This document shows positions 2,539 to 22,023 of a DNA stretch of 33,430 nucleotides, one piece after another. A program made the translations under genes and the position numbers. The notes under the pieces are model-generated. The model made no database searches and had not been told where the DNA came from. It saw only the letters and a list, made by a program, of their open reading frames with translations. Source of the stretch: a virus; IMG/VR virus record IMGVR_UViG_3300009285_001934, positions 1-33,430 of that record; one strand, given 5' to 3'. The stretch's first letter is position 1. Every line of letters begins with the position of its first letter.

Positions 2539-2667
2539 ATGGATCAACCGACAAACGAAAAAAGATACTGGACACCGCGCACATACCTAGTGTTACGCAA
2601 TGGGAAGCAGATTGGTGCGTGGACGACCACTATCCTTGATCCCAAGATTCGACTCATTTACGCATAA
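2539..2667 (+). CDS. Small protein, unknown, coupled to pseB
   Basis: A 42-residue frame whose TAA shares one base with the ATG of the next gene (TAATG). The sequence MDQPTNEKRYW...YLVLRNGKQIGAW...LDPKIRLIYA looks like a short antiparallel beta protein with many aromatic and basic residues. There is no clear Shine-Dalgarno immediately upstream; an AGGTGAGAG lies about 20 bases before the ATG. The one-base stop/start junction is the main reason to believe it. Function unknown. It could instead be only a leader frame that delivers ribosomes to pseB. Confidence 0.45.
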   Translation: MDQPTNEKRYWTPRTYLVLRNGKQIGAWTTTILDPKIRLIYA

Positions 2668-3515
2668 TGCTCAACACAAAGACTAGGCCGCTTGTTGTTG
2701 CAATAACGGGAGGGACTGGGAGCTTGGGGAATGCTCTAACGAAACACCTCCTGTCGCTTCCAACCATCGGAAGGATTCGCATCATCTCCCGTGATGAGTT
2801 CAAGCAGTCCACGATGGCAGAGACGTTCACGGACAATCGTATGCGGTTCTTCGTTGGGGACGTTCGCGACGAAGATCGTATGATCGATGCACTCAGTGGG
2901 GCCGATGTTGTGGTCCACGCCGCAGCCATGAAACAGGTACCGGCGTGTGAGTACAACCCGTGGGAAGCCGTCAAGACGAACATCATGGGGACGCAAAGCG
3001 TCATTTCTGCCTGTATCAAGAACGGCGTGAAGAAGGCGGTATTTGTTTCAACAGACAAGGCGGTTGATCCGGTAAATCACTACGGAACGACCAAGAAGGT
3101 CGCCGAGAACCTCTGGCTCTATGCGGACTACACCAAGACGAACTTCGCCATCTCGCGCTGGGGGAACATCCTGTACTCACGAGGATCAGTCATCCCCATC
3201 TTCCAAGAGCAAGCGAAAACCGGAACACTGACAATCACCCACACTGATATGACGCGGTTCCTCCTCACGCTCGAGGAAGCGACGAAGTACCTCTGGGCGT
3301 GCATTGAGAAGATGAACGGTGGGGAAACTTTCATCCCATCGTGGCTCAAGAGCGCCAGAATACTCGACATCGCTCGGGCTATCGCGCCAGAAGCAACTAT
3401 CAAGGTCATCGGTGTTCGGAAGGGTGAGAAGATACACGAAACACTCGGAGACGGGTATCACTCCAACGACCCCAAGAGACTCCTGACATTTGAGGAAGTA
3501 AAGGCGCTTCTATGA
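2667..3515 (+). CDS. pseB: PseB-like UDP-GlcNAc 4,6-dehydratase (inverting)
   Basis: A 282-residue extended short-chain dehydrogenase of the FlaA1/PseB/CapD type. The Rossmann glycine motif is ITGGTGSLGNAL (13-24), an acidic GDVRDEDRM follows at 64-72, AAAMKQVPACEYNP (85-98) is the PseB/CapD signature, STDKA at 128-132 supplies the Asp-Lys pair, and the catalytic YxxxK is Y139-K143. GVRKGEKIHE near the C-terminus is the family's substrate-binding end motif. It converts UDP-GlcNAc to the 4-keto-6-deoxy-AltNAc sugar, the first step of pseudaminic acid synthesis. Length is somewhat below the usual ~330. It overlaps the next gene by 4 bases. Confidence 0.88.
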   Translation: MLNTKTRPLVVAITGGTGSLGNALTKHLLSLPTIGRIRIISRDEFKQSTMAETFTDNRMRFFVGDVRDEDRMIDALSGADVVVHAAAMKQVPACEYNPWEAVKTNIMGTQSVISACIKNGVKKAVFVSTDKAVDPVNHYGTTKKVAENLWLYADYTKTNFAISRWGNILYSRGSVIPIFQEQAKTGTLTITHTDMTRFLLTLEEATKYLWACIEKMNGGETFIPSWLKSARILDIARAIAPEATIKVIGVRKGEKIHETLGDGYHSNDPKRLLTFEEVKALL

Positions 3516-4105
3516 ACCCACACGAGGTTACCAAACAGTTCGAGAAAGCCGTTGCTGAATACACCGGCGCACCGTACGCCATTGCCACGACATCCTGCAC
3601 GATGGCGCTGCTCCTCGCCTGCGCCTACCACAAGGTCATCAAGGTCACTATTCCAAAGCGAACCTACATCTCGGTCCCCATGAGTATTATTCACGCCGGA
3701 GGCAAGGTCAGATTTGATGATCGGGAGTGGAAAGGAACCTACCAGCTCAAGCCCTACCCCATCTGGGACTCCGCCCGCTGGTTCTCATCAGGAATGTACC
3801 AAATGCCTGGTCAGATGATGTGCGTCTCGTTCCACTGGTCAAAGACGCTTGGCATAGGACAGGGTGGTGCTATACTTCATGATGATCCCAGGGCAGATAT
3901 TTGGCTCAAGAAAGCCAGATTTGATGGCAGGACAGAGGGCATTGAACCAAAGGACGATGAGTTCCCATTCCTCGGCTGGCACGCCTACATGAGTCCCCGC
4001 GATGCCGCCGAAGGACTCTCGCGCCTCGCCCTGCTTCCAAAGGACAACGACCCAATTCCCAATGATCCATATCCTGATTTGAGTACTATCAAGATATTCC
4101 AATGA
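3512..4105 (+). CDS. DegT/DnrJ/EryC1-type PLP aminotransferase, short (PseC-like)
   Basis: A 197-residue protein that matches the N-terminal large domain of sugar aminotransferases. The opening FEKAVAEYTGAPYAIATTSCTMAL gives the fold's cofactor-binding start, PIWDSARWF holds the PLP-contacting Asp, and SFHWSKTLGIGQGGAIL contains the Schiff-base Lys. The WHAYMSPRDAAEGLSRLALL segment matches the usual end of the large domain (NYRMSDIQAALGLSQL-like). It stops there, so the C-terminal small domain of about 150 residues is missing. By position it would be PseC, which aminates the PseB product using glutamate. Whether the short form is active alone is unknown. It overlaps both neighbours by 4 bases. 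Confidence 0.82.
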   Translation: MNPHEVTKQFEKAVAEYTGAPYAIATTSCTMALLLACAYHKVIKVTIPKRTYISVPMSIIHAGGKVRFDDREWKGTYQLKPYPIWDSARWFSSGMYQMPGQMMCVSFHWSKTLGIGQGGAILHDDPRADIWLKKARFDGRTEGIEPKDDEFPFLGWHAYMSPRDAAEGLSRLALLPKDNDPIPNDPYPDLSTIKIFQ

Positions 4106-4797
4106 GAACATTCCTCATCGCTGAGGTCGGCTCGAACCACGAAGGTTCGCTCAAACGCGCCCTCGAACTGATTGAGATAGCAAAAGACTCCGGCGCAGAT
4201 GCCGTGAAGTTCCAGCTCATCCCCCCATTCAAGCCCGACTGGATAGATAAGATTATCGAATACTGCAAAGACGACATTGAGTTCATGGCTTCCCCATTCA
4301 ATGAAGCAGGTGTCAACGCACTCCGAGGCAGGATCAAGCACTGGAAAATAGCCTCTACCGAAGCCGCCAATCCCGAGTTCGTGAAACTGGTACTCAAGGC
4401 CGCCAAGTTCGATACTGTATTCATCTCTGACGGCGCAACCGAGAATCCAAACAAGATCGTCGCTCTCGGCCCCAATGTTGTTCCTATGTCCTGCGTCGTG
4501 AGGTACCCAGCAGAAGTCTGGGATTACTCCTTCCAGTACCACGGACGCTGGGGACTCTCTGACCACACAGAGGGAAACCTGTACCTCCCAACCGTCGCTG
4601 TCGCAGCCGGAGCAGTCGCAGTAGAAAAGCACTTTACCGACGACCCAAAGAGAGATGGTCCCGATCATGCCTACGCCCTCACCCCAGTCCAGCTTACTGA
4701 AATGGTCCAATCTATCAGAATGACCGAGGCGCTATTCACGAATCCCAAAACAACCATCACTGACCACGTTGGCAGAACACTCCAATGGCCAACATAA
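4102..4797 (+). CDS. NeuB/PseI-like nonulosonic acid synthase without SAF domain
   Basis: A 231-residue TIM-barrel of the NeuB family. It opens FLIAEVGSNHEGSL (4-17), followed by SGADAVKFQ, FMASPFNEAG, KIASTEAANP, ISDGATENP, YPAEVWD and GLSDHTEGN, and AVAAGAVAVEKHFTDD near 171-186. These are the phosphoenolpyruvate and sugar-binding blocks of sialic/pseudaminic acid synthases. The reaction condenses a 6-carbon amino sugar with PEP. The C-terminal antifreeze-like (SAF) domain that normally completes a ~340-residue enzyme is absent. The gene overlaps the upstream aminotransferase by 4 bases and the GNAT gene by 13. Assignment to PseI rather than NeuB or LegI rests on the neighbours. Confidence 0.87.
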   Translation: MRTFLIAEVGSNHEGSLKRALELIEIAKDSGADAVKFQLIPPFKPDWIDKIIEYCKDDIEFMASPFNEAGVNALRGRIKHWKIASTEAANPEFVKLVLKAAKFDTVFISDGATENPNKIVALGPNVVPMSCVVRYPAEVWDYSFQYHGRWGLSDHTEGNLYLPTVAVAAGAVAVEKHFTDDPKRDGPDHAYALTPVQLTEMVQSIRMTEALFTNPKTTITDHVGRTLQWPT

Positions 4798-5195
4798 CTT
4801 TACGCAAAGTCGCGCCAGAGGATTTCCCATTCTTCTACGAACTGCTCGAAGACAAAACCCCCGAACAGAACATCTCCCATACTGCAATGCCCTCCTGGGA
4901 AGACCATGTAGACTTCAACACCGCCAATCCCTACGCAGAAGACTACGTACTCCTCAACGAGGATCATGTACGGGTAGGAAGAATCTACCTCACCCACAAG
5001 AACGAAATCGGCATCCACGTTCACTCTCGGTATCAAGGGAAGCACTACGGCACTGCGGCGCTGGTCACCCTCCTCGTAAAGCACAAAGACGAAGAACTCT
5101 ACGCCAACATCTCGCCCAAGAATGTTAGATCACAAGCCTTCTTTGAGAAGATGGGCTTTACCCTCCACCAGATGACGTACAAACTCGAACCATAA
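4785..5195 (+). CDS. GNAT acetyltransferase (PseH-like)
   Basis: A 136-residue GNAT-fold protein. It begins ITLRKVAPEDFPFFYELLED, the usual first strand and helix. The acetyl-CoA pyrophosphate loop is RYQGKHYGTAAL (82-93), a close match to the family Q/RxxGxG/A pattern, and it ends NVRSQAFFEKMGF (113-125), the classic GNAT motif B. In the pseudaminic pathway PseH acetylates the 4-amino group; this gene's place directly after the synthase fits that role, though GNAT specificity cannot be read from sequence. The start at 4785 lies inside the end of the synthase gene. It shares its last base with the next gene's ATG. Confidence 0.8.
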   Translation: MANITLRKVAPEDFPFFYELLEDKTPEQNISHTAMPSWEDHVDFNTANPYAEDYVLLNEDHVRVGRIYLTHKNEIGIHVHSRYQGKHYGTAALVTLLVKHKDEELYANISPKNVRSQAFFEKMGFTLHQMTYKLEP

Positions 5196-5593
5196 TGGGT
5201 CAAACAGGTAGACCGACAGTTATCACAGAGGAGACTGTCAGGAAACTTGAGAGTGCCTTCAAGATCGGCGCTAATGACTCAGAGGCCTGTCATTTCGCTA
5301 ACATTAGCCGAGAAACATACTATCGGCATCTCAAAGAGGATAAAGTCTTTAATGACAACATGACTCTAGCGAAAGAATGGCCAATCCTCGCTATGAAACG
5401 AACTATTGTTCAAGCAGCTGTAGATGGCGATAAGCAGTCTGCACAGTGGTACCTCGAGAGAAAGCGTAAGGACGAGTTCGCCCCACGGCAGGAACTCACT
5501 GGACCTGAGGGTATGCCGCTAGGGTATGTTCATTCGGGGGACATGAAGAAGCTCGACGAGGGTGTTGTAGAAACAGAACAACTACCCGAATGA
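5195..5593 (+). CDS. terS: Small terminase subunit-like DNA-binding protein
   Basis: A 132-residue protein. GRPTVITEETVRKLESAFKIGA, then EACHFANISRETYYRHLKED, make the helix-turn-helix typical of phage small terminase subunits (GRPTKLT...AGIS..TYY.W). A helical FNDNMTLAKEWPILAMKRTI block follows, and DGDKQSAQWYLERKRKDEFAPRQELTGPEG is the usual C-terminal region of this group. The small subunit recognises packaging sites and feeds DNA to the large subunit. Its position is unusual: it is inserted in the sugar operon and lies 3.2 kb upstream of terL, overlapping the GNAT gene by 1 base and the methylase by 4. A non-packaging regulator is a less likely alternative. Confidence 0.75.
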   Translation: MGQTGRPTVITEETVRKLESAFKIGANDSEACHFANISRETYYRHLKEDKVFNDNMTLAKEWPILAMKRTIVQAAVDGDKQSAQWYLERKRKDEFAPRQELTGPEGMPLGYVHSGDMKKLDEGVVETEQLPE

Positions 5594-6138
5594 ACCAACT
5601 CGAACGCTGGCAGGGGAGGTTCGGTGACGACTACAGCAAGCGGAACGACTACGATCCAAAACTACGACTCGAAGCGTTCAAGGCGCTCATCCCCAATGGT
5701 GTACGGTCAGTTCTTGAAGTAGGGTGCAACATCGGGAACAACCTGGAAACCATCAGCGCACTTGGTATACCCACTGTGGTAGGTATAGAACCCAATGTGA
5801 AAGCCGCTCGTATTGGCAAAGAACGAGGAAGAACCATCATCATCGGTGAAGCGTTAAATCTACCTATTGAGGGTTCAACCTACGACCTGGTGTTCACCGC
5901 CGGAGTCCTCATGCACATCCCAGACTACCGTGATGCGATGCGAGAGATATGGCGCGTGACACGGAAATACGCCCTCGCCATTGAATATATGGGCGACGGT
6001 GAATCAATCACCTACCACGGCAACGACGATATGCTGTGGAGGCGGAAGGGCTACGTGTACCCAGGAGAACTCATTGGGGCTGGTAAACTTGGTGAGGAGT
6101 TCGACCACTGCGGCTATCAGCTCTACAAGAAACAATGA
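5590..6138 (+). CDS. SAM-dependent methyltransferase, pseudaminic-acid-associated type
   Basis: A 182-residue class I methyltransferase. The opening ERWQGRFGDDYSKRN closely resembles the pseudaminic acid biosynthesis-associated methylase family (TIGR03587-like). The SAM glycine motif is VLEVGCNIGNN, acidic motif II is VVGIEPN, motif III is LVFTAGVLMHIPD, and the EIWRVTRKYALAIEYMGDG block follows. The C-terminus YRG-like stretch GNDDMLWRRKGYVYPGEL also fits. The family is found beside Pse genes in other bacteria, with a presumed sugar or pathway substrate that has not been fixed. Its presence strengthens the pathway call. ATGA overlaps on both sides couple it to terS and the cytidylyltransferase. 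Confidence 0.83.
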   Translation: MNQLERWQGRFGDDYSKRNDYDPKLRLEAFKALIPNGVRSVLEVGCNIGNNLETISALGIPTVVGIEPNVKAARIGKERGRTIIIGEALNLPIEGSTYDLVFTAGVLMHIPDYRDAMREIWRVTRKYALAIEYMGDGESITYHGNDDMLWRRKGYVYPGELIGAGKLGEEFDHCGYQLYKKQ

Positions 6139-6701
6139 CCACGATCATCATCCAAGCGCGCATGGGTTCCACGAGACTTCCTGGTAAGTCCATGCTCATG
6201 CTCGACGGCTACCCAGTCATCCAGCACGTGGTTGCACGCTGTCGCGCTACAAAATACCAGACGGTCGTAGCAACACCCAATACGCCCGATAACCGCCCCA
6301 TCTGGGATTTGTGCAAACAGAACGACGTTCAGCTCTACAAGGGACACCCAACAGACTTACTCAAACGATACGCAGACTGCGCCCGTATGATCGCCCCAGA
6401 CGCTGATGTCTTTATTCGCATCACCGCCGACTGCCCATTCATCAACACCGAACTGATCGTCCTCACTGAGCGGCTTTTCCGTATGTCCGGCGCAAAGGGG
6501 TACATGGGGTTCAACACTGTCCACGGACTCAACATTGAAGTGTTTGATCGTGATACCCTATTCGAGGCAGAGAAACACGGACCAGACGAGCATTGTACGA
6601 CGTGGATGCGCCAGAACTCTGACATCCCATTCCCATCATTGGAACTCAATACGCCAGAAGACTACGAACGACTCTCTACCATTTACCAACAGAAGATATG
6701 A
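6135..6701 (+). CDS. SpsF/PseF-like cytidylyltransferase
   Basis: A 188-residue nucleotidyltransferase. IIIQARMGSTRLPGKSM (4-20) is the CTP-binding signature shared by SpsF, NeuA and PseF-type enzymes. VVATPNTPDNRPIWDLCKQN, then YKGHPTDLLKRYADCA, and VFIRITADCPFI with the metal-binding Asp follow. The C-terminal GLNIEVFDRDTLFEAEK block matches the sugar-site region. It would charge the nonulosonic acid as a CMP-sugar, the donor form used by glycosyltransferases. It is shorter than the ~230 residues of most PseF/SpsF proteins. ATGA overlaps join it to the methylase and the amidotransferase. Confidence 0.84.
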   Translation: MTTIIIQARMGSTRLPGKSMLMLDGYPVIQHVVARCRATKYQTVVATPNTPDNRPIWDLCKQNDVQLYKGHPTDLLKRYADCARMIAPDADVFIRITADCPFINTELIVLTERLFRMSGAKGYMGFNTVHGLNIEVFDRDTLFEAEKHGPDEHCTTWMRQNSDIPFPSLELNTPEDYERLSTIYQQKI

Positions 6702-7690
6702 AACGATGCGCCCAGTGTGCGTTTCCCCTCGGTGTACGACCAGGACACATTGATGGAGATACGGTGTGTGGAGCGTGTACCAATCAGGCACGAGCTGAGA
6801 GCTTCGACTGGGCTGGTCGTAGGCAGAAGCTCGAGGACATTTGCAACGATCTACGAGACACAAAGCCCTACTCGTGTGTTGTAGCAGTATCGGGTGGCAA
6901 GGACTCCACAGTGATCGTTGCCAGACTGGTTGAGAAGTACCACCTCAAGCCGCTACTTGTCACAGTCACAGACGAGTTCACCCACACAAAGGCAGGTACG
7001 CACAACGCAGAAAACATCGCTCACCGGTTCAACCTTGACCATGTGGTGTGGCGCTGTGAGCCTGAGACATTCCGCACAGAGACGAAGAAGGACTTTGAGA
7101 ACGACCTACACCCCCTCAAGTGGATCGAGGAGAAGATCTACTCCGTCCCGATTATGATGGCAAAGGCGCTCAAGATACCCGCAGTGTTCTTTGGTGAGAA
7201 CTCTGCGTTCCAGTATGGTACGTCAGCCACACTGGACTACGAGCATCCCCTGTCTACAGATGACGTGAGGGTGTACTACTACTTCGCCTTTGAGAAATAC
7301 TCAGAGCTAGGGAACCGCGAGGAAGCCAAGAAGTACGGCTTCATTGACCTAGATGACACCGGTGAGTGGTTCCGGCAGGGGCATATCGAGAACTACACCC
7401 AACAGGACTCCGTAGCCTATGTAGTGCAGTTGTGGACGAAGTTCGTCAAATACGGCTTCCAACGTGTGTCAGACATCGCCAGCCGGTACGCCAGGGCAGG
7501 ACATATCACCCGAGATCAAGCACTCTCCTACATCCACGAACGTGACTGGCAGTGCGATCCACGTGCTAAACGGGACTTCTGCGACACCATTGGCATAACC
7601 GAGGAACACTTTGATCGTGTTGTAGACGACCACGCGAACCTCGACATCGTACAGAAAGATGTCAATGGACAGTGGAAGTTGCGCTCGTAG
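6698..7690 (+). CDS. pseA: PseA-like N-acetyl sugar amidotransferase
   Basis: A 330-residue protein of the PseA/WbuX/LegG group (N-acetyl sugar amidotransferase). A zinc knuckle C4-C7-C24-C27 opens the protein, the ATP pyrophosphatase PP-loop SGGKDS lies at 65-70, and TDEFTHTKAGTHNAEN, then FGENSAFQYGTS and a long helical C-terminus complete the usual architecture. In Campylobacter PseA is needed for the acetamidino form of pseudaminic acid. It closes the sugar operon; after its TAG comes promoter P3. A dedicated glutaminase partner (HisH-like) is not visible here, so the ammonia source is open. Confidence 0.86.
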   Translation: MKRCAQCAFPLGVRPGHIDGDTVCGACTNQARAESFDWAGRRQKLEDICNDLRDTKPYSCVVAVSGGKDSTVIVARLVEKYHLKPLLVTVTDEFTHTKAGTHNAENIAHRFNLDHVVWRCEPETFRTETKKDFENDLHPLKWIEEKIYSVPIMMAKALKIPAVFFGENSAFQYGTSATLDYEHPLSTDDVRVYYYFAFEKYSELGNREEAKKYGFIDLDDTGEWFRQGHIENYTQQDSVAYVVQLWTKFVKYGFQRVSDIASRYARAGHITRDQALSYIHERDWQCDPRAKRDFCDTIGITEEHFDRVVDDHANLDIVQKDVNGQWKLRS

Positions 7691-8183: not shown

Positions 8184-8789
8184 ATGCAGACAGCCATGCT
8201 CGGCTCTAGGTTGGTCGAGGTGCCTCACTTCAACACAGGCAGAATCCCCTGGAATAAGGATCGAGCATGGTCTGATAAAGAAAAGGAACGGATCTCCTCT
8301 GGTAGAAAGGGCAAAGCGCTGGGAAATAAAAACGCTCTTGGACATAGTCACCCACTCTCGCAGGAAGCAAAAGACAAACTGAGTAGAGAGCGGAAGGGGA
8401 AGAAACGACCACCATTCAGCAGAGAGTGGCGTGAGAAAATCTCAAGGGCGGCGACGGGTCGTAAATACCCAGAATCATTCTGTGAGAAATCAAGAATCAA
8501 CAGACTGGGTCCTAGAAACCCAATGTGGAAAGGTGGTATCTACCCAGCAAATAGGGCTGCAAGAAAGACCGCCGAGTACAAGAGATGGCGTAGGGCAGTC
8601 TTCGAGAGGGATAACTATACCTGCATAGCCTGTTCCGTTCGCGGAGGCACCTTACACGCGGATCACATCAAGCGGTTCGCAGAACATGAAGACCTACGCT
8701 ATGAGGTATCAAACGGGAGAACCATGTGTGTCGGTTGTCACAGGAAAACAGACACTTGGGGAACAAAGACCAAATACATCAAAGAATGA
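8184..8789 (+). CDS. HNH homing endonuclease with NUMOD3 repeats
   Basis: A 201-residue free-standing homing endonuclease. Residues 30-100 carry repeated NUMOD3-type DNA-binding motifs (SxExKxKxSxxxKGKK; SREWREKISRAATGRK). Residues 132-195 form the HNH domain: YKRWRRAVFERDNYTCIAC (C147, C150), LHADHIKRF with the catalytic H158-D160-H161 group, N177 in VSNGRT, and CVGCH (C182, C185, H186). It directly abuts the preceding small gene and its TGA overlaps the terL ATG, so it is well adapted to the operon. Such genes typically cut a nearby unoccupied allele, here probably terL or its flank; the target is inference. Confidence 0.93.
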   Translation: MQTAMLGSRLVEVPHFNTGRIPWNKDRAWSDKEKERISSGRKGKALGNKNALGHSHPLSQEAKDKLSRERKGKKRPPFSREWREKISRAATGRKYPESFCEKSRINRLGPRNPMWKGGIYPANRAARKTAEYKRWRRAVFERDNYTCIACSVRGGTLHADHIKRFAEHEDLRYEVSNGRTMCVGCHRKTDTWGTKTKYIKE

Positions 8790-13345: not shown

Positions 13346-13388
13346 ATGGCAGTCCTAACAAGTACGTTGACCGTTACGATGGCCACGT
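13346..13388 (+). CDS. Major capsid protein, exon 1
   Basis: First 43 bases of the capsid gene, encoding MAVLTSTLTVTMAT plus the first base of a Tyr codon. AAGGA lies 8 bases before the ATG. Unspliced, the frame would stop at once (TAG, 13388-13390), giving a 14-residue peptide. N4-gp56-family capsid proteins usually begin with a short LT.xMxTYYxK-like segment; joining this exon to base 14043 gives MATYYSKVFLEK across the junction, exactly that pattern. The last base, T13388, is the U of the P1 U-G wobble that marks the 5' splice site of a group I intron. Confidence 0.85.
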
Positions 13389-14042
13389 AGAATAATGCGT
13401 CCTTGAGTCGCGAGACTCATTGAAAACCCGATCTGATAACGGTGAAACTCCCACCATTGACACAATGGCGTAGCACTCCTACACTGTTAGTACATTACAC
13501 TAACGCCATTCCAATGAGGACAACGCCGTGGGAAACGAGAAAAGAAGATATTGGCTGGCTCGCTGGAATCATAGACGGAGAAGGCTCTATCTATGCGGCA
13601 ATAAAGGATTCGTACCCCTATTTCCGGTATTCGTTCCAGCTAGTCAATACGAACCGCGAACTGTTGGAGAAGTTTCAGACGATTGTACAAAAGATATGCG
13701 GAAACGATGGGAAGTTCCCGATCGTCCCAAAGAAGTACACCGTCGGAATCGTTGGGAAGAAACAGTGCTATGCACTCCAGGTCAGACGAATAGATGATCT
13801 GAAAGGAATGCTCACGGCTGTTCTCCCACACCTCACAGAAAAGCGCACAAAGGCTGAGTATCTTCTGACCACCCTCAATAGCCACAAACGATACCAGTGG
13901 TACAAGAAAGAGGGACTCGTACCCGTAGAGACTAAGTGATCGGCTCTCCATAATGGAGATGAAGCCATAGTCCGAACTTACGGGTAACCGTAAGAGGGAG
14001 CAGAAATGCCCTCCCCGCCCCATAGGGGGTAGTAACAACATG
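13389..14042 (+). mobile_element. Group I intron (654 nt) with LAGLIDADG ORF, inserted in the capsid gene
   Basis: A self-splicing intron core can be traced. P1: ACGT (13385-13388) with GCGT (13397-13400), U-G wobble at the splice site. P10: exon 2 ATTA (14043-14046) with TAAT (13393-13396), next to the P1 guide. P2: TGAGTC/GACTCA around a GCGA tetraloop (13404-13419). P3: CCGATC (13428-13433) with GATCGG (13938-13943). P7: GACTA (13930-13934) with TAGTC (13968-13972). P8: TCTCCA/TGGAGA around TAA (13945-13959). P9: CTTACGG/CCGTAAG around a GTAA tetraloop (13977-13994). The intron ends in G (14042), as required. Removing it restores the capsid frame. Two more hairpins (CCATTG/CAATGG near 13455; GTTAGT/ACTAAC near 13485) fit the P5-P6 region. 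Confidence 0.93.
13514..13939 (+). CDS. LAGLIDADG homing endonuclease (intron-encoded)
   Basis: A 141-residue single-motif LAGLIDADG endonuclease. WLAGIIDGEGSI (15-26) carries the motif with its acidic metal-binding residue; YFRYSFQLVNTNRELLEKFQ, then QCYALQVRRIDDLKGMLTAV and EKRTKAEYLLTTL, follow the usual alpha-beta-beta pattern. Single-motif enzymes act as homodimers and cut the intronless capsid allele to spread the intron; some also help splicing. The ATG at 13514 is preferred over the GTG at 13442, which lies in the P3-P4 region. The last codons overlap the P7 5' strand, a common arrangement that constrains both RNA and protein. Confidence 0.92.
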   Translation: MRTTPWETRKEDIGWLAGIIDGEGSIYAAIKDSYPYFRYSFQLVNTNRELLEKFQTIVQKICGNDGKFPIVPKKYTVGIVGKKQCYALQVRRIDDLKGMLTAVLPHLTEKRTKAEYLLTTLNSHKRYQWYKKEGLVPVETK

Positions 14043-14938
14043 ATTACTCAAAAGTCTTTCTCGAGAAGTCACGTCTCCTGATCCGTCACGATGCCTTCGC
14101 CCAAAAGCGCGGCGTCCCAGCGAACCAGGGCAAGGTCGTGAACTTCACCCGCCATGTCGCACCAGCAGTTGCTACAACTGGTCTTACCGAGTCCGTTACG
14201 CCTACGGCGATCAACGTCTCAGGTCAGACCGTTGCAGTGACACTGGTCGAGTACGGTGCCTACGCGCAGATCTCGAAGTTCTACGAGCGAACGTCTATCG
14301 ACGTTGGACTCAAGGAACAGGTCGAGGCGATGGGCGTCAATATGGGAGAAAGTATCGATACGATCATTCGGAACGCACTGGTGACGGGTGGTGGAGTTGG
14401 TCAGTACACTGACGATTCTACCTCCTACACTTCTGTGGCTTCGACGGTCGATGCTTCAGACTTCCGAGTAGCGGTCCGAACACTCAAGAAGAACAAGGCT
14501 ATCCCGTTCCAGGGTACCCAGGGCAATCCTGTCTTTGGCGCTCTCATTGGACCGGAAGTAGCTTACGACCTCTTGGGCGATTCGACCTGGCAGGCCACGC
14601 AGCAGTACGTGAACCCAGACCCGATGAAACGGGGAATCTTGGGAACGTTCTTCGGTGTTGAGTTCGTTGAGACAAACAACAACTACAAGCCGAACAGCTC
14701 TGGTTCTGGCGGGTACGTCACGTGGATCTTCGGCAAGGAAGCATACGGCGTTGTCTCGATTGATTCTGAGGATGTTACCACTCCTGGTGCGGCACAGCTC
14801 GTCATGAAGGACTCTGGTCCGAATGACACCGGCAACCCACTCTCGATGTGGTCAACACTCGGTTGGTACGCTCCGTTCAACGCGATCGTACTCAACTCCG
14901 ACTGGATCGTCGAGCTATACGCTAAGGCGTCTTCCTAA
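14043..14938 (+). CDS. Major capsid protein (N4-gp56 type), exon 2
   Basis: Main part of the capsid gene. Joined to exon 1 it gives 312 residues. The order of blocks fits the N4-gp56 family: YYSKVFLEKSRLLIRHDAFA, then KRGVPANQGKVVNFTRH (the N-arm), ATTGLTESVTPT, VTLVEYGAYAQISKFYERT, EAMGVNMGESIDTIIRNAL and TGGG, then a long HK97-fold body ending WIVELYAK. The intron interrupts the N-terminal arm just before the conserved YYSK. Reading from the first in-frame start inside this exon (GTG, 14138) would lose the N-arm. It is followed by a complex RNA fold and a GroES-like gene. Confidence 0.92.
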
Positions 14939-15036: not shown

Positions 15037-15360
15037 ATGATCATACCGTTGAATCAAAACTGTCTCATCGAGCGCGATGAGAAGAAGTCTGACTTTGTGG
15101 TACGCAAGTCAGGCATCATCACACCTACCGGACAAGTAGAAAACGAAGGGCTTGTCTTTGGTACCGTACTCCGCGCACCCAAAGACCAGAACCTTCTCAT
15201 CGACAAAGAACGTCTGGTGAACGACCGCGTTATCAAAAATGGAGATCGGGTCTGGTACTCACGCTACTCTGCGGGACTGATTCTCGATGACCGCAAGGAG
15301 AGTGCAGATGAGTTCCTTGATCTTGTACCGCTCGAGGACATCCGCGCCATCATCGAATGA
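15037..15360 (+). CDS. GroES-like co-chaperonin
   Basis: A 107-residue protein with the GroES layout. The first strand IIPLNQNCLIERDE matches the family start (PLxDRVLIxxDE); RKSGIITPTGQVENEG corresponds to the mobile loop that binds GroEL (SGIIxP); FGTVLRAP follows, then NGDRVWYSRYSAG matches the GDRVLYxKYAG block. The end FLDLVPLEDIRAIIE matches the last strand. Co-chaperonin caps host GroEL and sets the size of the folding chamber. A phage version directly after the capsid gene recalls T4 gp31, needed to fold the capsid protein; that specific client is inferred from position. Its stop overlaps the next ATG by 4 bases. Confidence 0.85.
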   Translation: MIIPLNQNCLIERDEKKSDFVVRKSGIITPTGQVENEGLVFGTVLRAPKDQNLLIDKERLVNDRVIKNGDRVWYSRYSAGLILDDRKESADEFLDLVPLEDIRAIIE

Positions 15361-15689
15361 CCCTTCAGTCGTTCAATGCGCGTCTCAAGCGGTGTGACCC
15401 ACATCTGCGCCTGAGAACTCGTACTGGATGGGTACTACTGAAAAGCGAGGGGTTCTCGATGGTTGGTGTCTATCGTGGACCCGCATACCAGTACATTGCC
15501 GCTATCTCTGGCGATCTCCCATACCACACACGAGGTACTGTGTGGCGACTTGAGCGCATCCCAGGACAGAGGAAACCCTTGAAGTACATCCACTCCCGTA
15601 TGCGCCGTGGACGGTATGAGCTGATCCAAATGCTCATCGGGAAACGATGCATCAAACACCGATGGCAGCGTCAACTCCTCTCGACATGA
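15357..15689 (+). CDS. Basic hypothetical protein
   Basis: A 110-residue, Arg-rich protein coupled by ATGA overlaps to the GroES-like gene and to the first glycosyltransferase. It opens LQSFNARLKRCDPHLRLRTRTGWVLLKSEGF and continues with alternating short strands (YIAAISGDLPYHTRGTVWRLERIP) and a basic C-terminal helix (KYIHSRMRRGRYELIQMLIGKRCIKHRWQ). No family is recognised. The basic surface suggests nucleic-acid or capsid contact, but nothing decides it. Similar small proteins often sit between capsid and connector genes. Confidence 0.7.
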   Translation: MTLQSFNARLKRCDPHLRLRTRTGWVLLKSEGFSMVGVYRGPAYQYIAAISGDLPYHTRGTVWRLERIPGQRKPLKYIHSRMRRGRYELIQMLIGKRCIKHRWQRQLLST

Positions 15690-16681
15690 ACCGCGCAACG
15701 ATACTGAACTTCAATGGCATACTCGACCCTCTCTACCAGACGTTCGAGCAGGCAGAACTGACCGACATTACCGAGCCAGGGAAACGCCCAGACTGTCTCA
15801 TCACATGGACGGACTACCCGCAGGACATGAAGATGCTCTGCCTCGCGGCACTCCAACAGGGTGTACCAACATTCATGGTCCAGCACGGTCGCAGGGCTAT
15901 GCGTGACTACTGGACGCACCGGGGAGAGCCAACGTCGGTCGCCGCTTTCGTCTGGGGGAGTAAGGATCACGAAGATGCACTCACTGGACACTGGTCGCCA
16001 GAACAGGTGTTTCGTGTTGGTGCGCCGTGGTTTCACTACCGCCCCAAACCGCAGGAGGAACGAGGTACGGTTATCTATGACGTTCCCCATTGGAACATAG
16101 ATACCAAAGAATCCATATTGACGTGGGCTGCACTCAAGCGCATTGGTGGCATACGCCCGATTGCCAAGATGATTGCCCCATCAGAACAGAAGCAAAACAA
16201 CTATATCGGGGAGCAATGCATCACTTACCGGAACGAGCCGGGGCATATCGAGTCGACGTACGACCTACTCAAACGAGCATCATGTGTCGTGACGATGATG
16301 GAAAGCACGCTGGAGCTGATGGCGATGTCGCTCAACGTCCCTGTCGTCCACGTCAAAGGATTCAAGCACAAAGAACTCCCCGGTACGTGGCAGGGGGTTG
16401 AAGATACATTGCCCCAGAAGGGTTCGATTGCTTGTGAGCGTGGGGAGATGTCAGACGCAATAGCGGAAGCCATGAAGCGCCCCAGTAAACTCATGAAAGA
16501 CGCTCACGAACGGCTCATTGAGGACGCTGGTGACCCAGATAAAGACACCCCAGTACGATCCATCACCACGCTCATTGGAGACATGGTAGACACCTACCAT
16601 GAAACCCACGCAGTAGGACCGAGACTCAATATGTTCGAGAAAGAAGCACACAATGCGCCGGATACTATCATTCAGAAATGA
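15686..16681 (+). CDS. GT-B-fold glycosyltransferase-like protein
   Basis: A 331-residue protein. The ATG at 15686 overlaps the previous TGA, preferred over the in-frame start at 15647. The blocks LITWTDYPQDMKMLCLAALQ, then GVPTFMVQHGRRAM (59-72), FVWGSKDHEDAL, and VFRVGAPWFHY are typical of GT-B enzymes related to capsule-polysaccharide or glycerophosphate transferases. The C-terminal half ends with STLELMAMSLNVPVVHVKG, the donor-site helix of such folds. It could be a glycosyl- or glycerophosphotransferase; a PseG-like UDP-sugar hydrolase (the pathway step missing upstream) is a weaker alternative. It overlaps the next gene by 29 bases. Confidence 0.65.
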   Translation: MNRATILNFNGILDPLYQTFEQAELTDITEPGKRPDCLITWTDYPQDMKMLCLAALQQGVPTFMVQHGRRAMRDYWTHRGEPTSVAAFVWGSKDHEDALTGHWSPEQVFRVGAPWFHYRPKPQEERGTVIYDVPHWNIDTKESILTWAALKRIGGIRPIAKMIAPSEQKQNNYIGEQCITYRNEPGHIESTYDLLKRASCVVTMMESTLELMAMSLNVPVVHVKGFKHKELPGTWQGVEDTLPQKGSIACERGEMSDAIAEAMKRPSKLMKDAHERLIEDAGDPDKDTPVRSITTLIGDMVDTYHETHAVGPRLNMFEKEAHNAPDTIIQK

Positions 16682-17759
16682 CTGGAACGGTCTAGGACCG
16701 AAGGGAACCGACCTCATCGGTGGGGTTGGGTACTACCGTATACAGAAACCCCTGTCGTTTCTTGGTCGGAAATACAGTGTGTTTGACTTGGGCGACATCT
16801 CAACCGCGCAGAAGAATCTCAAAAGGGTAGGCAAGGACTGGTCCGAGGATGAACTAGTGCCGAACCTCATCAAGGACTCTGACTTGGTGTTCATGAAGAA
16901 CATCTCACACCCAGGGGGGCTGGCGTGGTTCGCAGGAGCGTGTGACTTCTATAACAAGCCCCTGATCGTGGACATGGACGACAACTACCTCGCCGTAGAC
17001 GACCTGCACGAGAAGCGCGACTACTTCAAGGAAACGGCGATAGCGAATATCACTCACAAGGAGCTGTTCAAGGCCGCTACTGCCATGACGGTCAGCACTG
17101 AACCACTCGTTGATGTCTATAAGGAGTTCAATACAAACGTCCACGTCCTGCACAACTACAACGACGCGAACGACTGGAAATACAAACGGTTCAAGCGCCC
17201 AGACGGAAAGATCGTTATTGGGTGGGCTGGGAGTCAGACCCACGAGGCAGACTTCCACGTTATTGAGCCGGTCATCAGGGCTATATGGAAGAAGTATGGC
17301 AAGAAGGTCATATTCGCGATCTGCGGGGGATTGCCGGTACACCTGACCGACGGACTCCCACATGGGTCGTACGCGGTGTTCTCCGGTACTCGGACCATGA
17401 GGGACTACCCAGCTCGCCTTGCATCCTGGGGGTTCGACATAGGACTCGCACCACTCAAAAAGTCTGTCTTCAACGATGGGAAGGGACATGGGAAGTGGAT
17501 GGAGTACGCTATGTACGATATTCCCCTTGTTGCGACGAACTACGGACCCTACGCGCGCGTGGTTGAGAACGAACGAACTGGTCTGCTGGTAGACAGCACC
17601 GAGGAATGGGTGGATGCAATCTCTTGGCTTGTTGAGGACGAGGAACTACGAATGAGAATTGGCAAAGCAGCAAAGAGTGATGTGAAGAAGCGCTGGCAGT
17701 GGTCTTCTAATAGTTGGAGATGGGATGAAATCTTCAAGAAGTACCATTCGTTTCGATGA
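16653..17759 (+). CDS. GT4-like glycosyltransferase 1
   Basis: A 368-residue GT-B glycosyltransferase. Its N-terminal half has VGYYRIQKPLSFLG, LVFMKNISHPGG and KPLIVDMDDN, a strand with an Asp-rich turn; KIVIGWAGSQTHEADF opens the C-terminal nucleotide-sugar domain. KWMEYAMYDIPLVATNYGPY is the usual donor-binding block, and RTGLLVDSTEEWVDAI matches the GT4 end. It starts inside the previous gene and shares ATGA with its downstream paralogue. The likely substrate is a nucleotide sugar, perhaps the CMP-nonulosonate made upstream, with a virion protein as acceptor; both points are inferred from context only. Confidence 0.83.
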   Translation: MRRILSFRNDWNGLGPKGTDLIGGVGYYRIQKPLSFLGRKYSVFDLGDISTAQKNLKRVGKDWSEDELVPNLIKDSDLVFMKNISHPGGLAWFAGACDFYNKPLIVDMDDNYLAVDDLHEKRDYFKETAIANITHKELFKAATAMTVSTEPLVDVYKEFNTNVHVLHNYNDANDWKYKRFKRPDGKIVIGWAGSQTHEADFHVIEPVIRAIWKKYGKKVIFAICGGLPVHLTDGLPHGSYAVFSGTRTMRDYPARLASWGFDIGLAPLKKSVFNDGKGHGKWMEYAMYDIPLVATNYGPYARVVENERTGLLVDSTEEWVDAISWLVEDEELRMRIGKAAKSDVKKRWQWSSNSWRWDEIFKKYHSFR

Positions 17760-18880
17760 AGAAAGTCCTCGCGATCAACAACCAGTTCCCGACCGAGGAA
17801 AACAAGAAATACGGTCTGACCTCAGCAGTCTCGTACTACCGACAAGTGATGCCAGGAAGACACCTTGAGGGGTACGAGTTCCACCACCTCGGACACCAGC
17901 TCATTGATCTCGATGTACATACTGCCGAAACAAGGATCGGCAACATGGTCCACGCGCATGACATCGTATTCACTAAGCACCTCGACAACCCGACTGGTAT
18001 TTATATGCTCCTCGGGGCGTGTGACTACTACGACCGACCCCTCATTGTAGACTTCGACGACGACGTATTCGCCACCGACGGCAAGGAACACAACCTGTAC
18101 GTCTACCCAGAGGACAGCGACGCTCGGCGCTACCTGGAAGTGTTATTGCGGGAAGCCACCGCCATTACCGTCTCCGTCCCGAGTTTGGTTCCGGTGTACC
18201 AGAAATACAACGACCATGTTTACGTCTGCCCCAATGCCGTCGATCCCAAAGATTGGAATGGGCAGAGGACTCACCACAAACGTCTGACCATAGGCTGGCC
18301 TGCGTCTACCGGACACATCGTCGATCATGAAGTACTCGAACCGGTTGCCACGGAGATCGCCAAGTGCCACCCCGATATTGTCTTCTCCTTCATGGGGCAT
18401 TATCTCCCCGAACACATGGGGTTCCTTCATCGGAAGAACTGGGAGCTGAAACCAGGGGTGCTATGGTGGGAGGGACACCCGACCGACAAGCGCACATACC
18501 CATCGGTACTGGCTGACTTCGGCGCTGACATTGGTGTGGGACCACTCATAGACTCACGCTACAACGCCTCACGATCATTGGCAAAGTGGTTCGAGTACAC
18601 CATGACCGGCACGCCGATGGTCGCCAGCGACTACGGTCCCTACAAAGATTTGAGCAATGGTGAGGATGTCTACCTCGCCGGACCTGTGGACAAGTGGATC
18701 GAGTACCTATCACTATTGATCGAGAAACCAGATGAGCGACGAAGAATCGCCGACAACGCAAAACGCCGAATTGAGCGCGAATACACCATCCAGCGGGCAA
18801 TCCCAGCCTGGCGAGCTGCATTCGAGGCGGTCCGAGGGTTCCGAAAGTTCGCACCCACAGATTTTCGAGGAAAAGGATAA
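17756..18880 (+). CDS. GT4-like glycosyltransferase 2 (paralogue of 1)
   Basis: A 374-residue GT-B protein clearly related to its neighbour: LLGACDYYDRPLIVDFDDD mirrors the first enzyme's GACDFYNKPLIVDMDDN, and KWFEYTMTGTPMVASDYGPY mirrors KWMEYAMYDIPLVATNYGPY. LTIGWPASTGHIVDHEVLEP opens the C-terminal domain. The pair probably arose by tandem duplication and then diverged to different donors or linkages. The last 149 bases also code, in another frame, for the N-terminus of the next gene. The final residues RGFRKFAPTDFRGKG lie beyond the usual fold. Confidence 0.83.
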   Translation: MKKVLAINNQFPTEENKKYGLTSAVSYYRQVMPGRHLEGYEFHHLGHQLIDLDVHTAETRIGNMVHAHDIVFTKHLDNPTGIYMLLGACDYYDRPLIVDFDDDVFATDGKEHNLYVYPEDSDARRYLEVLLREATAITVSVPSLVPVYQKYNDHVYVCPNAVDPKDWNGQRTHHKRLTIGWPASTGHIVDHEVLEPVATEIAKCHPDIVFSFMGHYLPEHMGFLHRKNWELKPGVLWWEGHPTDKRTYPSVLADFGADIGVGPLIDSRYNASRSLAKWFEYTMTGTPMVASDYGPYKDLSNGEDVYLAGPVDKWIEYLSLLIEKPDERRRIADNAKRRIEREYTIQRAIPAWRAAFEAVRGFRKFAPTDFRGKG

Positions 18881-19271
18881 CAAATTCAATACTTCCGACG
18901 CGATTGATAAGGAAACCGACGACAATCTCGGTCCGAGCGCCTATTCTGGAACCGCAAGACCCTACCTAGCGAGACTTTTAGAGTTTTCTTCGACAGATAT
19001 TCGTGATTTTAGTCTTCGAGACAAGATCGCAGATGTAGACTCGTTTGTGTTGGCGCTTGCAAACGAGCGGCATTGGGTTGATACTCAATACAGTTACAAC
19101 AAAATACTGGACGAACTCAAGGGGAATCTAGGCATCCACCCGAACCTAGATTCTTTACGTTTACTGGACCTACTCCACCACGGCGTGAAACTCCTCACAC
19201 TCCAAAAGAAGCGTCGCGCTCAGGCAGAAGAAGTCCAACGCGCCATTGAAAAACTCAACGAACGCCCATGA
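18732..19271 (+). CDS. Hypothetical protein with overprinted N-terminus
   Basis: A 179-residue protein whose only in-frame ATG lies 149 bases inside the preceding glycosyltransferase gene; a TTG at 18771 is the main alternative. Residues 1-65 are acidic, Ser/Thr-rich and probably disordered (MSDEESPTTQNAELSANTPS...). Residues 75-179 are ordered and helical: YLARLLEFSSTDIRDFSLRD, LALANERHWVDTQYSYNKIL, LLDLLHHGVKLLTLQKKRRAQAEE. No family is recognised. It overlaps the connector gene by 4 bases, so it belongs to the head-tail operon and may be a virion or assembly factor. Confidence 0.7.
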   Translation: MSDEESPTTQNAELSANTPSSGQSQPGELHSRRSEGSESSHPQIFEEKDNKFNTSDAIDKETDDNLGPSAYSGTARPYLARLLEFSSTDIRDFSLRDKIADVDSFVLALANERHWVDTQYSYNKILDELKGNLGIHPNLDSLRLLDLLHHGVKLLTLQKKRRAQAEEVQRAIEKLNERP

Positions 19272-19930
19272 CACTCCTTGAACTCAAAACACAGCTAATT
19301 TCACTAGCCGACGACCCAGCAATTACTACGGCGCAGGCGGGCATTTGGATCAATACAAACTACCGATTGCTCAATCGTGAGTACGACTGGCCGTATATGG
19401 TCGGTAACGGATCGTACACCGTGACAAGCGGAACCGCTGAGACGCTGTTCAGTGGGTTCAGCACGGCAGTCACGGATTTCGCCAAGCCCCTGCGGGTGTG
19501 GATTGCGAACTCATCTACCGCAGACAAAACACCGCTCCACCCAATCCGCTACGAGGAACGCAACGAGCCAGGACTGGACGGGTACTACTACGTCACGCCG
19601 AACAATCTCTCCATCGGGCTGGTATCTACGCCAACCAACTCCTCTGATGTAGTGACAGTCGATTATCTCAAATCTACAGCCGACCTAGACGACGCCGATT
19701 CTCCAATCTTTCTTTCAGACTTCCACTCGATCCTCTTGTGGAAAGCGTTGATGATGTACCAGTTCCAACAGCGCGAACAGAGCGACGAGTTCAGGGCTAT
19801 GTACGAAGAAATCCTCAACCAGATGATCCAGTTCTACAAGATGCCACAAGCAGCGACCTCTCCGGTGTTGAGTCGGGGTGTTGGTATCTCTCGCAATACA
19901 GGGACCGCTGATCCGCTTCACCTCTCCTAG
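19268..19930 (+). CDS. Head-tail connector/adaptor protein
   Basis: A 220-residue protein in the adaptor position. The opening TLLELKTQLISLADDP then AQAGIWINTNYRLLNREYDWPYM is the characteristic helix-REYDWP pattern of podovirus-like head-tail adaptors. A beta-rich middle (GSYTVTSGTAETLFSG; LRVWIANSSTADKTPLHPIRYEE; NNLSIGLVSTPTNSSDVVTVDYLK) follows and then a helical end (LLWKALMMYQFQQREQSDEFRAMYEEIL). Such proteins form a ring under the portal. It is joined upstream by ATGA and is followed by the nozzle-like gene after 2 bases. Confidence 0.75.
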   Translation: MTLLELKTQLISLADDPAITTAQAGIWINTNYRLLNREYDWPYMVGNGSYTVTSGTAETLFSGFSTAVTDFAKPLRVWIANSSTADKTPLHPIRYEERNEPGLDGYYYVTPNNLSIGLVSTPTNSSDVVTVDYLKSTADLDDADSPIFLSDFHSILLWKALMMYQFQQREQSDEFRAMYEEILNQMIQFYKMPQAATSPVLSRGVGISRNTGTADPLHLS

Positions 19931-19932
19931 AA

Positions 19933-21708
19933 ATGCCGTTTGGTAAGCCCAAGATCGCCCACCAGATCATCAAGGACTTCTCCAAGATCGCCTCGGAGGT
20001 CTATGGGGATTTGGTCAATATTCACTTCCAAAAGGACACCGATGAAAAGGGCTACTACCCCAAGAAAATCCAGGGCTTCACACAACAGGGAACGAACGCC
20101 GGAGTTACAACGTCTGCTGGACTCGCCCTTGGGTCGTATCAGCCATCTACGGGTACAGCGGGTCTGTATGCCGCATGGGGAACGTACGTCTACCTCGTCG
20201 GAAGTGGTGCGCCAACAAAACAGTCAGGAGCGGCGACACAAATCCTAACGACTGGGACTGACGGCGAGTTTTGCCAGGTCAACAACGACCTGCTCTACAC
20301 CAACGGGCTTGGCGGTGCGGCAACGAACAACGTCCTCAAACTATCGGGTGGTTCGTGGACTGAGGCAGGTGCGGGCGGAACACCGGCAAACACAGTCCCC
20401 CTCACAGGCGCAAGTGCAGTTGCGAAGTACCTTTCGTACCATAACTTCATGCTCTTTGCTGCGAGAACGGTCACAAATACCAACACACTCTATGTTTCGG
20501 AAGCAGGGAGTCCATACAACTTCCCCACGACACAGACCAAGTCATTCCCCTACAAGATCGTCGGAATGCGGTCGCTCGGTGAGTACCTCATGCTCTACAC
20601 CGAAAAGACCATTCACGCTATTTCAGGCATGGTCCCAACATCACTGTCGTTCCGTGAAGTACCAAACCCACATCCCTGCGTTTCCCATCGAAGCATCGCT
20701 ACCGTCATCGGGGATGGGACTGCCTACTCCTCAACCGGTATCGAATCGGGGAGAATCGAACACTGGTACTTGGGTGATGACTATGTGTGGGCGACTGACG
20801 GTTCTACGTTCCGTATTCTCGGTAAGGACTCGTGGGAGAGCTTCAGAGCGCAACTCAACATCGCACAGCACGCGAACGCCGCCGGGTACTATGATGCGAA
20901 GTACCGGCAGTACCGACTCTCGGTCTGTACCGGAGTCAATACGACGAATAATGAAACATGGGCGTACGACGTGAATGGTGATCGGTGGATCAGAATGCCA
21001 TTTGTTACTGCCGCTGCATACGCATCTCATGGTGTCCCATCACCGACGCGCTACTGGATCGACGACAACGCCACGGGCAAGGTCTTTGTGCAGAACAGTG
21101 GGAACGGAGTCGCCTCGCCTGCCGATACGCTGAATGGAGACATTACCGCAACTGACACGACCATCGTTGTTGATAGCAACAGCGCCTTTCCCACATCCGG
21201 TGTCATCATGATTGAGAACGAGGCAATCTACTACGCGAGCAAGGACGCAGGCAATACGGACTTCGAGGGCTGTATTCGCGGGTACTCAGGGACAACCGCC
21301 GCCGCTCACGCCGATCCCGCAGCTGTATATCCCGCGCACAAGTTCCAGTATCGCACAACGAACCTCGACTTCGGCAATCACGAGTTGGTCAAGAAGTTCC
21401 AGGTTATATGGATATCAGCAGCGACATCCACTACCGCATACTCACTCGATGTAGAAGGAAATATTGACCAATATGGATGGTCGAAGATCAAGTCATTCCC
21501 ACTGGCGGCAGGTGGTACTACGTGGGGCGCTTTCACGTGGGGAGAATCAACGTGGGGCGCACCGGACATTCTTTACACACCCGACAACCGTGGCGCTATC
21601 TCTGGGAGGGGAAAGACCATCGCAATCGGTTTCAATGAACAAGCGTCTATCCAGCAGACATCCGTGACTGCAACGGAGATAAGAATGCGACCGTTGAAAA
21701 TAAAGTGA
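19933..21708 (+). CDS. Tail nozzle/hub-like protein (beta-propeller type)
   Basis: A 591-residue beta-rich protein. Repeated blade-like segments (GLYAAWGTYVYLVGSGAPTK; QVNNDLLYTNGLGG; YLSYHNFMLFAARTVTNTNT; LGEYLMLYTEKTIHAISGM; WYLGDDYVWATDGSTFRILG; ETWAYDVNGDRWIRMP) suggest a beta-propeller like the P22 gp10 / T7 gp12 nozzle. Near residues 390-450, TDTTIVVDSNSAFPTSGVIM with EAIYYASKD and FEGCIRGYSGT forms a small domain commonly inserted in phage tail proteins. It probably forms the tail tube end through which DNA leaves. The insertion site of the downstream HNH remnant lies just after its stop. Confidence 0.75.
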   Translation: MPFGKPKIAHQIIKDFSKIASEVYGDLVNIHFQKDTDEKGYYPKKIQGFTQQGTNAGVTTSAGLALGSYQPSTGTAGLYAAWGTYVYLVGSGAPTKQSGAATQILTTGTDGEFCQVNNDLLYTNGLGGAATNNVLKLSGGSWTEAGAGGTPANTVPLTGASAVAKYLSYHNFMLFAARTVTNTNTLYVSEAGSPYNFPTTQTKSFPYKIVGMRSLGEYLMLYTEKTIHAISGMVPTSLSFREVPNPHPCVSHRSIATVIGDGTAYSSTGIESGRIEHWYLGDDYVWATDGSTFRILGKDSWESFRAQLNIAQHANAAGYYDAKYRQYRLSVCTGVNTTNNETWAYDVNGDRWIRMPFVTAAAYASHGVPSPTRYWIDDNATGKVFVQNSGNGVASPADTLNGDITATDTTIVVDSNSAFPTSGVIMIENEAIYYASKDAGNTDFEGCIRGYSGTTAAAHADPAAVYPAHKFQYRTTNLDFGNHELVKKFQVIWISAATSTTAYSLDVEGNIDQYGWSKIKSFPLAAGGTTWGAFTWGESTWGAPDILYTPDNRGAISGRGKTIAIGFNEQASIQQTSVTATEIRMRPLKIK

Positions 21709-21717
21709 TTCAATAAC

Positions 21718-22023
21718 ATGAAAGGCCACTTTACCCCTCACTCTGAAGAAACCAAGCGTCGGATTAGTGAAAAGAATAAAGCTAAACCTACGCGATATTG
21801 GCTTGGGAAGAAGCGGGATACACCGTGGTTGAATACGCCTGAAGCTAACGAGAAAAAGAGATTATCTAAGTTGGGGGTAAAACAATCAGAATCCCACAGA
21901 AAGCCATTCGCTTACTTCCCAGAGCTACGATTTGCCATAGATAATGGAAGGACACTCTGTAAAGAGTGTCATAGCAAGACAGATACCTACATGGGTAGAG
22001 CAAAGACTTATAAACTAGAATAA
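21718..22023 (+). pseudogene. Degenerate NUMOD3/HNH homing endonuclease
   Basis: A 101-residue frame that keeps the N-terminal NUMOD3-like region (PHSEETKRRISEKNKAKPTRYWLGKK; ANEKKRLSKLGVKQSESHRKP) and the extreme C-terminal part of an HNH domain (FAIDNGRTLCKECHSKTDTY). The latter aligns with VSNGRTMCVGCHRKTDTW of the intact HNH gene at 8184. The middle of the HNH domain, with the first Cys pair and the catalytic His-Asp-His, is gone: the frame passes from KPFAYFPELR straight to the C-terminal half. It lies between two tail genes and looks like an internally deleted homing gene that kept its frame. DNA binding without cutting is possible. Confidence 0.8.

Follow-up and report, generated by a model that had tools for sequence, protein, structure and literature searches.

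To our knowledge, glycosylation of phage virions has been documented mainly in mycobacteriophages. Glycans have been reported on the virions of Che8 and its relatives (Freeman 2023, cited in PMC11256854 and PMC12619734), and the combination that the citing papers describe, phage-encoded glycosyltransferases (GTs) with glycosylated capsid (and tail) proteins, is the outcome proposed here for a locus in IMG/VR virus record IMGVR_UViG_3300009285_001934. This record is a podovirus-like phage contig of 33,430 bases, the whole of which is the window analyzed. The locus consists of three open reading frames (ORFs) at 15686-18880, designated GT1, GT2 and GT3, all on the + strand between the capsid and GroES-like genes and a neck adaptor gene. 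As far as the citing papers describe the mycobacteriophages, placement differs, since the GTs of Maravista lie near the 3' end of its genome whereas these lie between capsid and adaptor; many relatives of the present phage also add predicted sugar-nucleotide pathways, which differ from one phage to the next.

Two further systems offer partial parallels. In the Megavirinae, clade-specific, virus-encoded pathways for rare bacterial-like sugars have been proposed to decorate the capsid exterior in fibril glycosylation (PMC10117803), but these are giant eukaryotic viruses with unrelated genes and an unrelated capsid, and no capsid-adaptor locus figures in the part of that account drawn on here. 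Bacterial capsule and O-antigen loci likewise place sugar-nucleotide and GT genes in an exchangeable core between fixed flanks, whereas in the phage locus the flanks are capsid and adaptor genes and no flippase, polymerase or export proteins were seen. General searches of the open-access literature returned no description of this capsid-GT locus. What appears to be new is the fixed genomic place together with a polymorphic core, virion glycosylation itself being known from the mycobacteriophages.

To survey the wider family, viral contigs were retrieved with the capsid profile alone, and a locus was considered assessable when at least 6 kb was visible downstream of the capsid gene. In all 42 assessable loci (36 of 36 after collapsing capsids at 95% identity), the capsid gene is followed at 0.37-7.9 kb by a relative of GT2 and GT3 in the same orientation, and none of the 42 had such a gene upstream or antisense. 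Phage-encoded GTs are thus linked to virion genes throughout the assessable set, in phages whose capsids are as low as 35-45% identical, and the placement behind the capsid is well beyond chance. The few loci without a GT among those with less than 6 kb downstream may have one past the contig end.

Genes usually run in the order capsid, a protein of about 100 amino acids (c1), a variable sugar cassette, a terminal GT and an SU10-type adaptor, the last assigned by Pfam to SU10_adaptor in those examples that were scanned. Its minimal form, in locus L007, is simply capsid, c1, GT and adaptor; phages with SU10_MCP capsids share the layout, and MW202801, a complete metagenomic genome, has it with a different cassette. 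Among the cassette genes are those for GDP-mannose dehydratase, DegT aminotransferase, cupin, C-methyltransferase, cytidylyltransferase-like, GT2-family, TOD1-type and GT4 proteins. These gene orders indicate that the capsid-linked locus, with its predicted role in glycosylation, is real and conserved, having fixed flanks and a swappable core. No cultured phage with this layout was found, the only example among the phage records inspected being the metagenomic MW202801. A phage contig with capsid, sugar genes, GT and adaptor also lies inside a Parcubacteria metagenome-assembled genome (L182, JAIFWG010000003.1), a possible hint of a host.

The sequence-only reading of this DNA had recognized three co-directional GT genes in the head/tail block, and this was borne out, GT2 and GT3 by profiles and GT1 by fold. 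GT2 (16653-17759) and its paralogue GT3 (17756-18880) are GT4/CgeB-like enzymes matching PF00534 (GT2; 44.6 bits, curated cut-off 26.4) and PF13524 (GT3; 37.6 bits, curated cut-off 25), and both match the 'glycosyltransferase' family phrog_7162, at 1e-35 and 5e-27 respectively. GT1 (15686-16681) gave no significant match in Pfam (none at E<=0.1), PHROG, NCBIfam or PDB sequences and none by tblastn against phage records, and profile comparison found it unrelated to the other cassette families; its homologues, in the close relatives G001/G002, G003 and G011, define a new sequence family. An AlphaFold2 model of GT1 built from four sequences reached a predicted local distance difference test (pLDDT) score of 75.6, superseding a poor model from three (51.8), and adopts a full GT-B fold that spans almost the entire protein (Foldseek; VIA Z ~16, root-mean-square deviation 3.6-4.3 over ~265 residues). 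Because it has no family match and the GT-B fold is seen only in the predicted structure, its designation as a glycosyltransferase is a fold-level call.

The same reading had the GTs directly after the capsid and GroES-like genes, which holds for the block as a whole, but a 110-amino-acid protein gene (15357-15689, +) separates GroES from GT1. Its product is kin to the protein of about 100 amino acids that follows the capsid in relatives (hhalign 83.5%, E 8e-6). Before it stands the GroES-like (Cpn10) gene (15037-15360, +; PF00166 at 3e-4, equal to its cut-off; phrog_3188 1.6e-6), and after GT3 come a small protein filling the gap to the adaptor (18732-19271, +, start codon uncertain; 44-53% identity in G001-G003) and the SU10-type neck adaptor that forms the downstream fixed flank (19268-19930, +; PF24175 6e-14, a Pfam family shared by the relatives). 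From GroES to adaptor these genes overlap, by ATGA at 15357, 15686, 17756 and 19268 and by longer stretches at 16653 and 18732, and no terminator-like site was found on the + strand between 13000 and 20200.

The close relatives G001/G002 (capsid 83% identical), G003 (77%) and G011 (59% to the G003 capsid) keep the order capsid, GroES, 15357-type protein, GT1, GT2, GT3, small protein and adaptor. Since the 40.6-kb G011 has an exact 127-bp terminal overlap, it is probably a complete genome. It also encodes a GroEL-type chaperonin right after GroES in the capsid operon (L034 107-1540; PF00118 4.6e-38).

Divergence of the GT follows that of the capsid. Distances of the two correlated with rho 0.87 across 35 loci, the corresponding values being 0.78 for the protein of about 100 amino acids, 0.51 for the adaptor and 0.33-0.63 for cassette genes. 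In a common set of 23 loci, with plain p-distances as throughout and portal genes taken by ORF position, the capsid correlated at 0.79 with the GT, 0.72 with the portal, 0.60 with the adaptor and 0.51 with the terminase. This pattern fits a GT that has adapted to its capsid, with linkage contributing.

Decoration of the virion is the best explanation of the GT1-GT3 locus, with a probability of roughly two in three, and phages of this layout probably cover their virions with exchangeable sugars. In a hydropathy scan the proteins between capsid and GT showed no membrane segments, the six positives all lying downstream of the GT and outside that interval, and a scan of cellular genomes turned up two weak GT relatives, one of them on a contig that is itself phage and encodes SU10_MCP, sugar enzymes, a GT and an adaptor. 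The likeliest acceptor is a cytosolic virion protein, because hydropathy shows no membrane proteins in the interval, cellular relatives are nearly absent and a thymidylate-synthase-family gene is mostly missing; the capsid protein ranks first as a candidate, followed by the protein of about 100 amino acids or the neck. That a virion component is the acceptor, as had been suggested from the initial sequence, is supported indirectly, by the 42 of 42 placements, capsid co-divergence, lack of membrane segments and scarcity of cellular relatives, rather than proven, and it survives in that homologues confined to host-surface loci were not seen.

Several points weigh against virion decoration. Both the glycan and the enzyme activities are predictions from the genes, and linkage by itself is able to raise the capsid-GT correlation, which was computed from simple p-distances. 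Seven loci (L171-L173, L175, L176, L179 and L180) have weak GT matches (24-32%), followed by no recognized adaptor. The cellular-genome scan relied on short exact peptide patterns, which do not prove absence. In phages of Bacillus, Streptomyces and Paenibacillus that share this capsid family, the stretch viewed downstream of the capsid gene carries no annotated GT, and glycosylation is therefore not required for the capsid fold.

On this explanation GT1-GT3 are the local version of a locus in which the capsid and the protein of about 100 amino acids on one side and the SU10-type adaptor on the other enclose an exchangeable core of enzymes for sugar nucleotides plus additional GTs, and each assessable relative has a GT of the phrog_7162 type. 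The GTs would be co-translated with the structural genes, act in the cytosol late in infection and most likely decorate a virion protein with a short glycan, GT2 and GT3 presumably acting first and GT1 extending or capping their product. The benefit may be variation of the particle surface, shielding or adsorption; the sequence-only reading had suggested shielding or mimicry of host surface glycans.

The nature of the sugar is a separate question, raised by a cassette at 2667-7690 (+) whose genes resemble a cytidine monophosphate (CMP)-nonulosonate route and include an amidotransferase and a methylase of the Pse type. It comprises a PseB-like nucleotide-sugar 4,6-dehydratase (2667-3515; PF02719; TIGR03589 at 326 bits, below the equivalog cut-off of 408), a DegT-type sugar aminotransferase (3512-4105; PF01041 1.5e-17), a NeuB/PseI-type nonulosonate synthase (4102-4797; PF03102 1.2e-34; TIGR03569 at 140 bits, below the equivalog cut-off), a PseH-like GNAT acetyltransferase (4785-5195; PF13302 2e-11), a methyltransferase resembling Pse-associated methylases (5590-6138; TIGR03587 at 84.7 bits, cut-off 112), a CMP-sugar cytidylyltransferase-like protein (6135-6701; PF02348 2e-16) and an N-acetyl sugar amidotransferase-like protein of the WbuX/PseA type (6698-7690; TIGR03573 at 199.4 bits, just below the cut-off of 203.2). 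The aminotransferase, synthase and cytidylyltransferase are unusually short, at 197, 231 and 188 amino acids. The set parallels the bacterial pseudaminic/legionaminic pathway in its PseB-, PseC/DegT-, NeuB-, PseH-, cytidylyltransferase-, WbuX- and Pse-methylase-like genes and differs from it in its shortened enzymes, in being dispensable for GT1-3, and in PseG, for which TIGR03590 found no match in the window, G001, G003 or G011 although the profile does match control genomes; the complete B-C-H-G-I-F set is accordingly found in none of the four.

It is possible, though we hold it only tentatively, that this route feeds GT1-3 and that the virion carries pseudaminic/legionaminic-type sugars, a special case of virion decoration in which transfer of the nonulosonate would fall to GT1, whose GT-B family was found in no other clade. 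GT1-3 and the cassette occur together in three lineages (the window, G001/G002 and G003), as the proposed co-occurrence of these GTs with a Pse cassette would have it; PF03102 and PF02348 both score above cut-off in the window, G001 and G003, with the NCBIfam equivalog cut-offs not reached; genes like those for NeuB, the CMP-transferase, the amidotransferase and the Pse-methylase are present; and L107, a contig with a close capsid, carries the cassette's downstream half. The association breaks, however, in the complete G011, which has GT1-3 but no detectable PseB, PseC, NeuB, CMP-transferase, methylase, WbuX or other cassette gene, so that GT1-3 can exist without the nonulosonate pathway. Against the idea stand also the missing PseG, the short enzymes with scores below equivalog cut-offs, the different sugar routes encoded in the wider family and the prospect that the nonulosonate has a separate acceptor. 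The nonulosonate-decorated virion of the sequence-only reading is for these reasons not established. In this clade the upstream route may feed the GTs, the host providing the missing step, perhaps the sugar itself, or it may serve something else.

That missing step bears on GT1, which could instead be an epimerase or hydrolase of GT-B fold (UDP-GlcNAc 2-epimerase/NeuC/PseG-like) completing the upstream route. UDP-GlcNAc 2-epimerases and NeuC are among its best fold matches, and PseG was not found; yet they tie with transferases such as MGD1 and SpnG (Z ~16), no epimerase Pfam appears at E<=0.1, no PseG profile matches, and G011 has GT1 with no pathway to be served. We consider this assignment unlikely.

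Phage GTs that alter the host surface are well known, as in gtr seroconversion, and the late-operon site could serve expression only, the GTs modifying a host surface glycan for receptor change or superinfection exclusion. GT4 and WbqC-type genes in the cassettes of relatives do resemble O-antigen enzymes. The membrane flippase and GT proteins of gtr-type O-antigen seroconversion are nevertheless missing, the hydropathy scan having found no flippase, polymerase or other membrane protein from capsid to GT, and with a GT family almost missing from cellular genomes in the peptide-pattern scan and diverging along with the capsid, we regard this role as quite improbable. Hypermodification of phage DNA, as in T-even-like systems, is more doubtful still: DNA-glycosylating phage GTs have been described (Pyle 2024, as cited in PMC12619734) and large myophages of E. 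coli and Campylobacter encode relatives of phrog_7162, but the GT genes lie in the structural block and a thymidylate synthase/hydroxymethylase-family gene is missing from eight of nine records checked, the window, G011 and MW202801 among them, being present only in the distant relative G006 (19826-20254).

Elsewhere in the window, the capsid gene named in the sequence-only reading is present but interrupted, after about 14 codons, by an insert of about 650 nt carrying a LAGLIDADG ORF (13442-13939). Exon 1 (MAVLTSTLTVTMAT; 13346-13387, +, 3' end approximate) matches in frame the N-terminus of the uninterrupted capsid gene of relatives, and exon 2 (about 14042-14938, +; phrog_1357 2.4e-36) aligns with the N-terminus of a relative from about 14045. 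An Rfam scan of the window gave nothing at gathering score; within the insert, 13774-13994 matches a group I intron below threshold (E 0.16). The capsid gene of G007 is likewise split, at a different site. Two HNH-type ORFs, at 8184-8789 and 21718-22023, have similar C-termini, and one immediately precedes terL.

With the odds evenly balanced, the locus may represent a virion serotype locus widespread in uncultivated phages, in which fixed capsid and neck flanks and a capsid-locked GT would surround a freely exchanged sugar core yielding differing glycans, here possibly nonulosonate. If this is true, variation of the particle glycan would be a general phage trait with a simple genomic marker, and the occurrence of the same capsid family in cultured phages with no annotated GTs offers a direct comparison.

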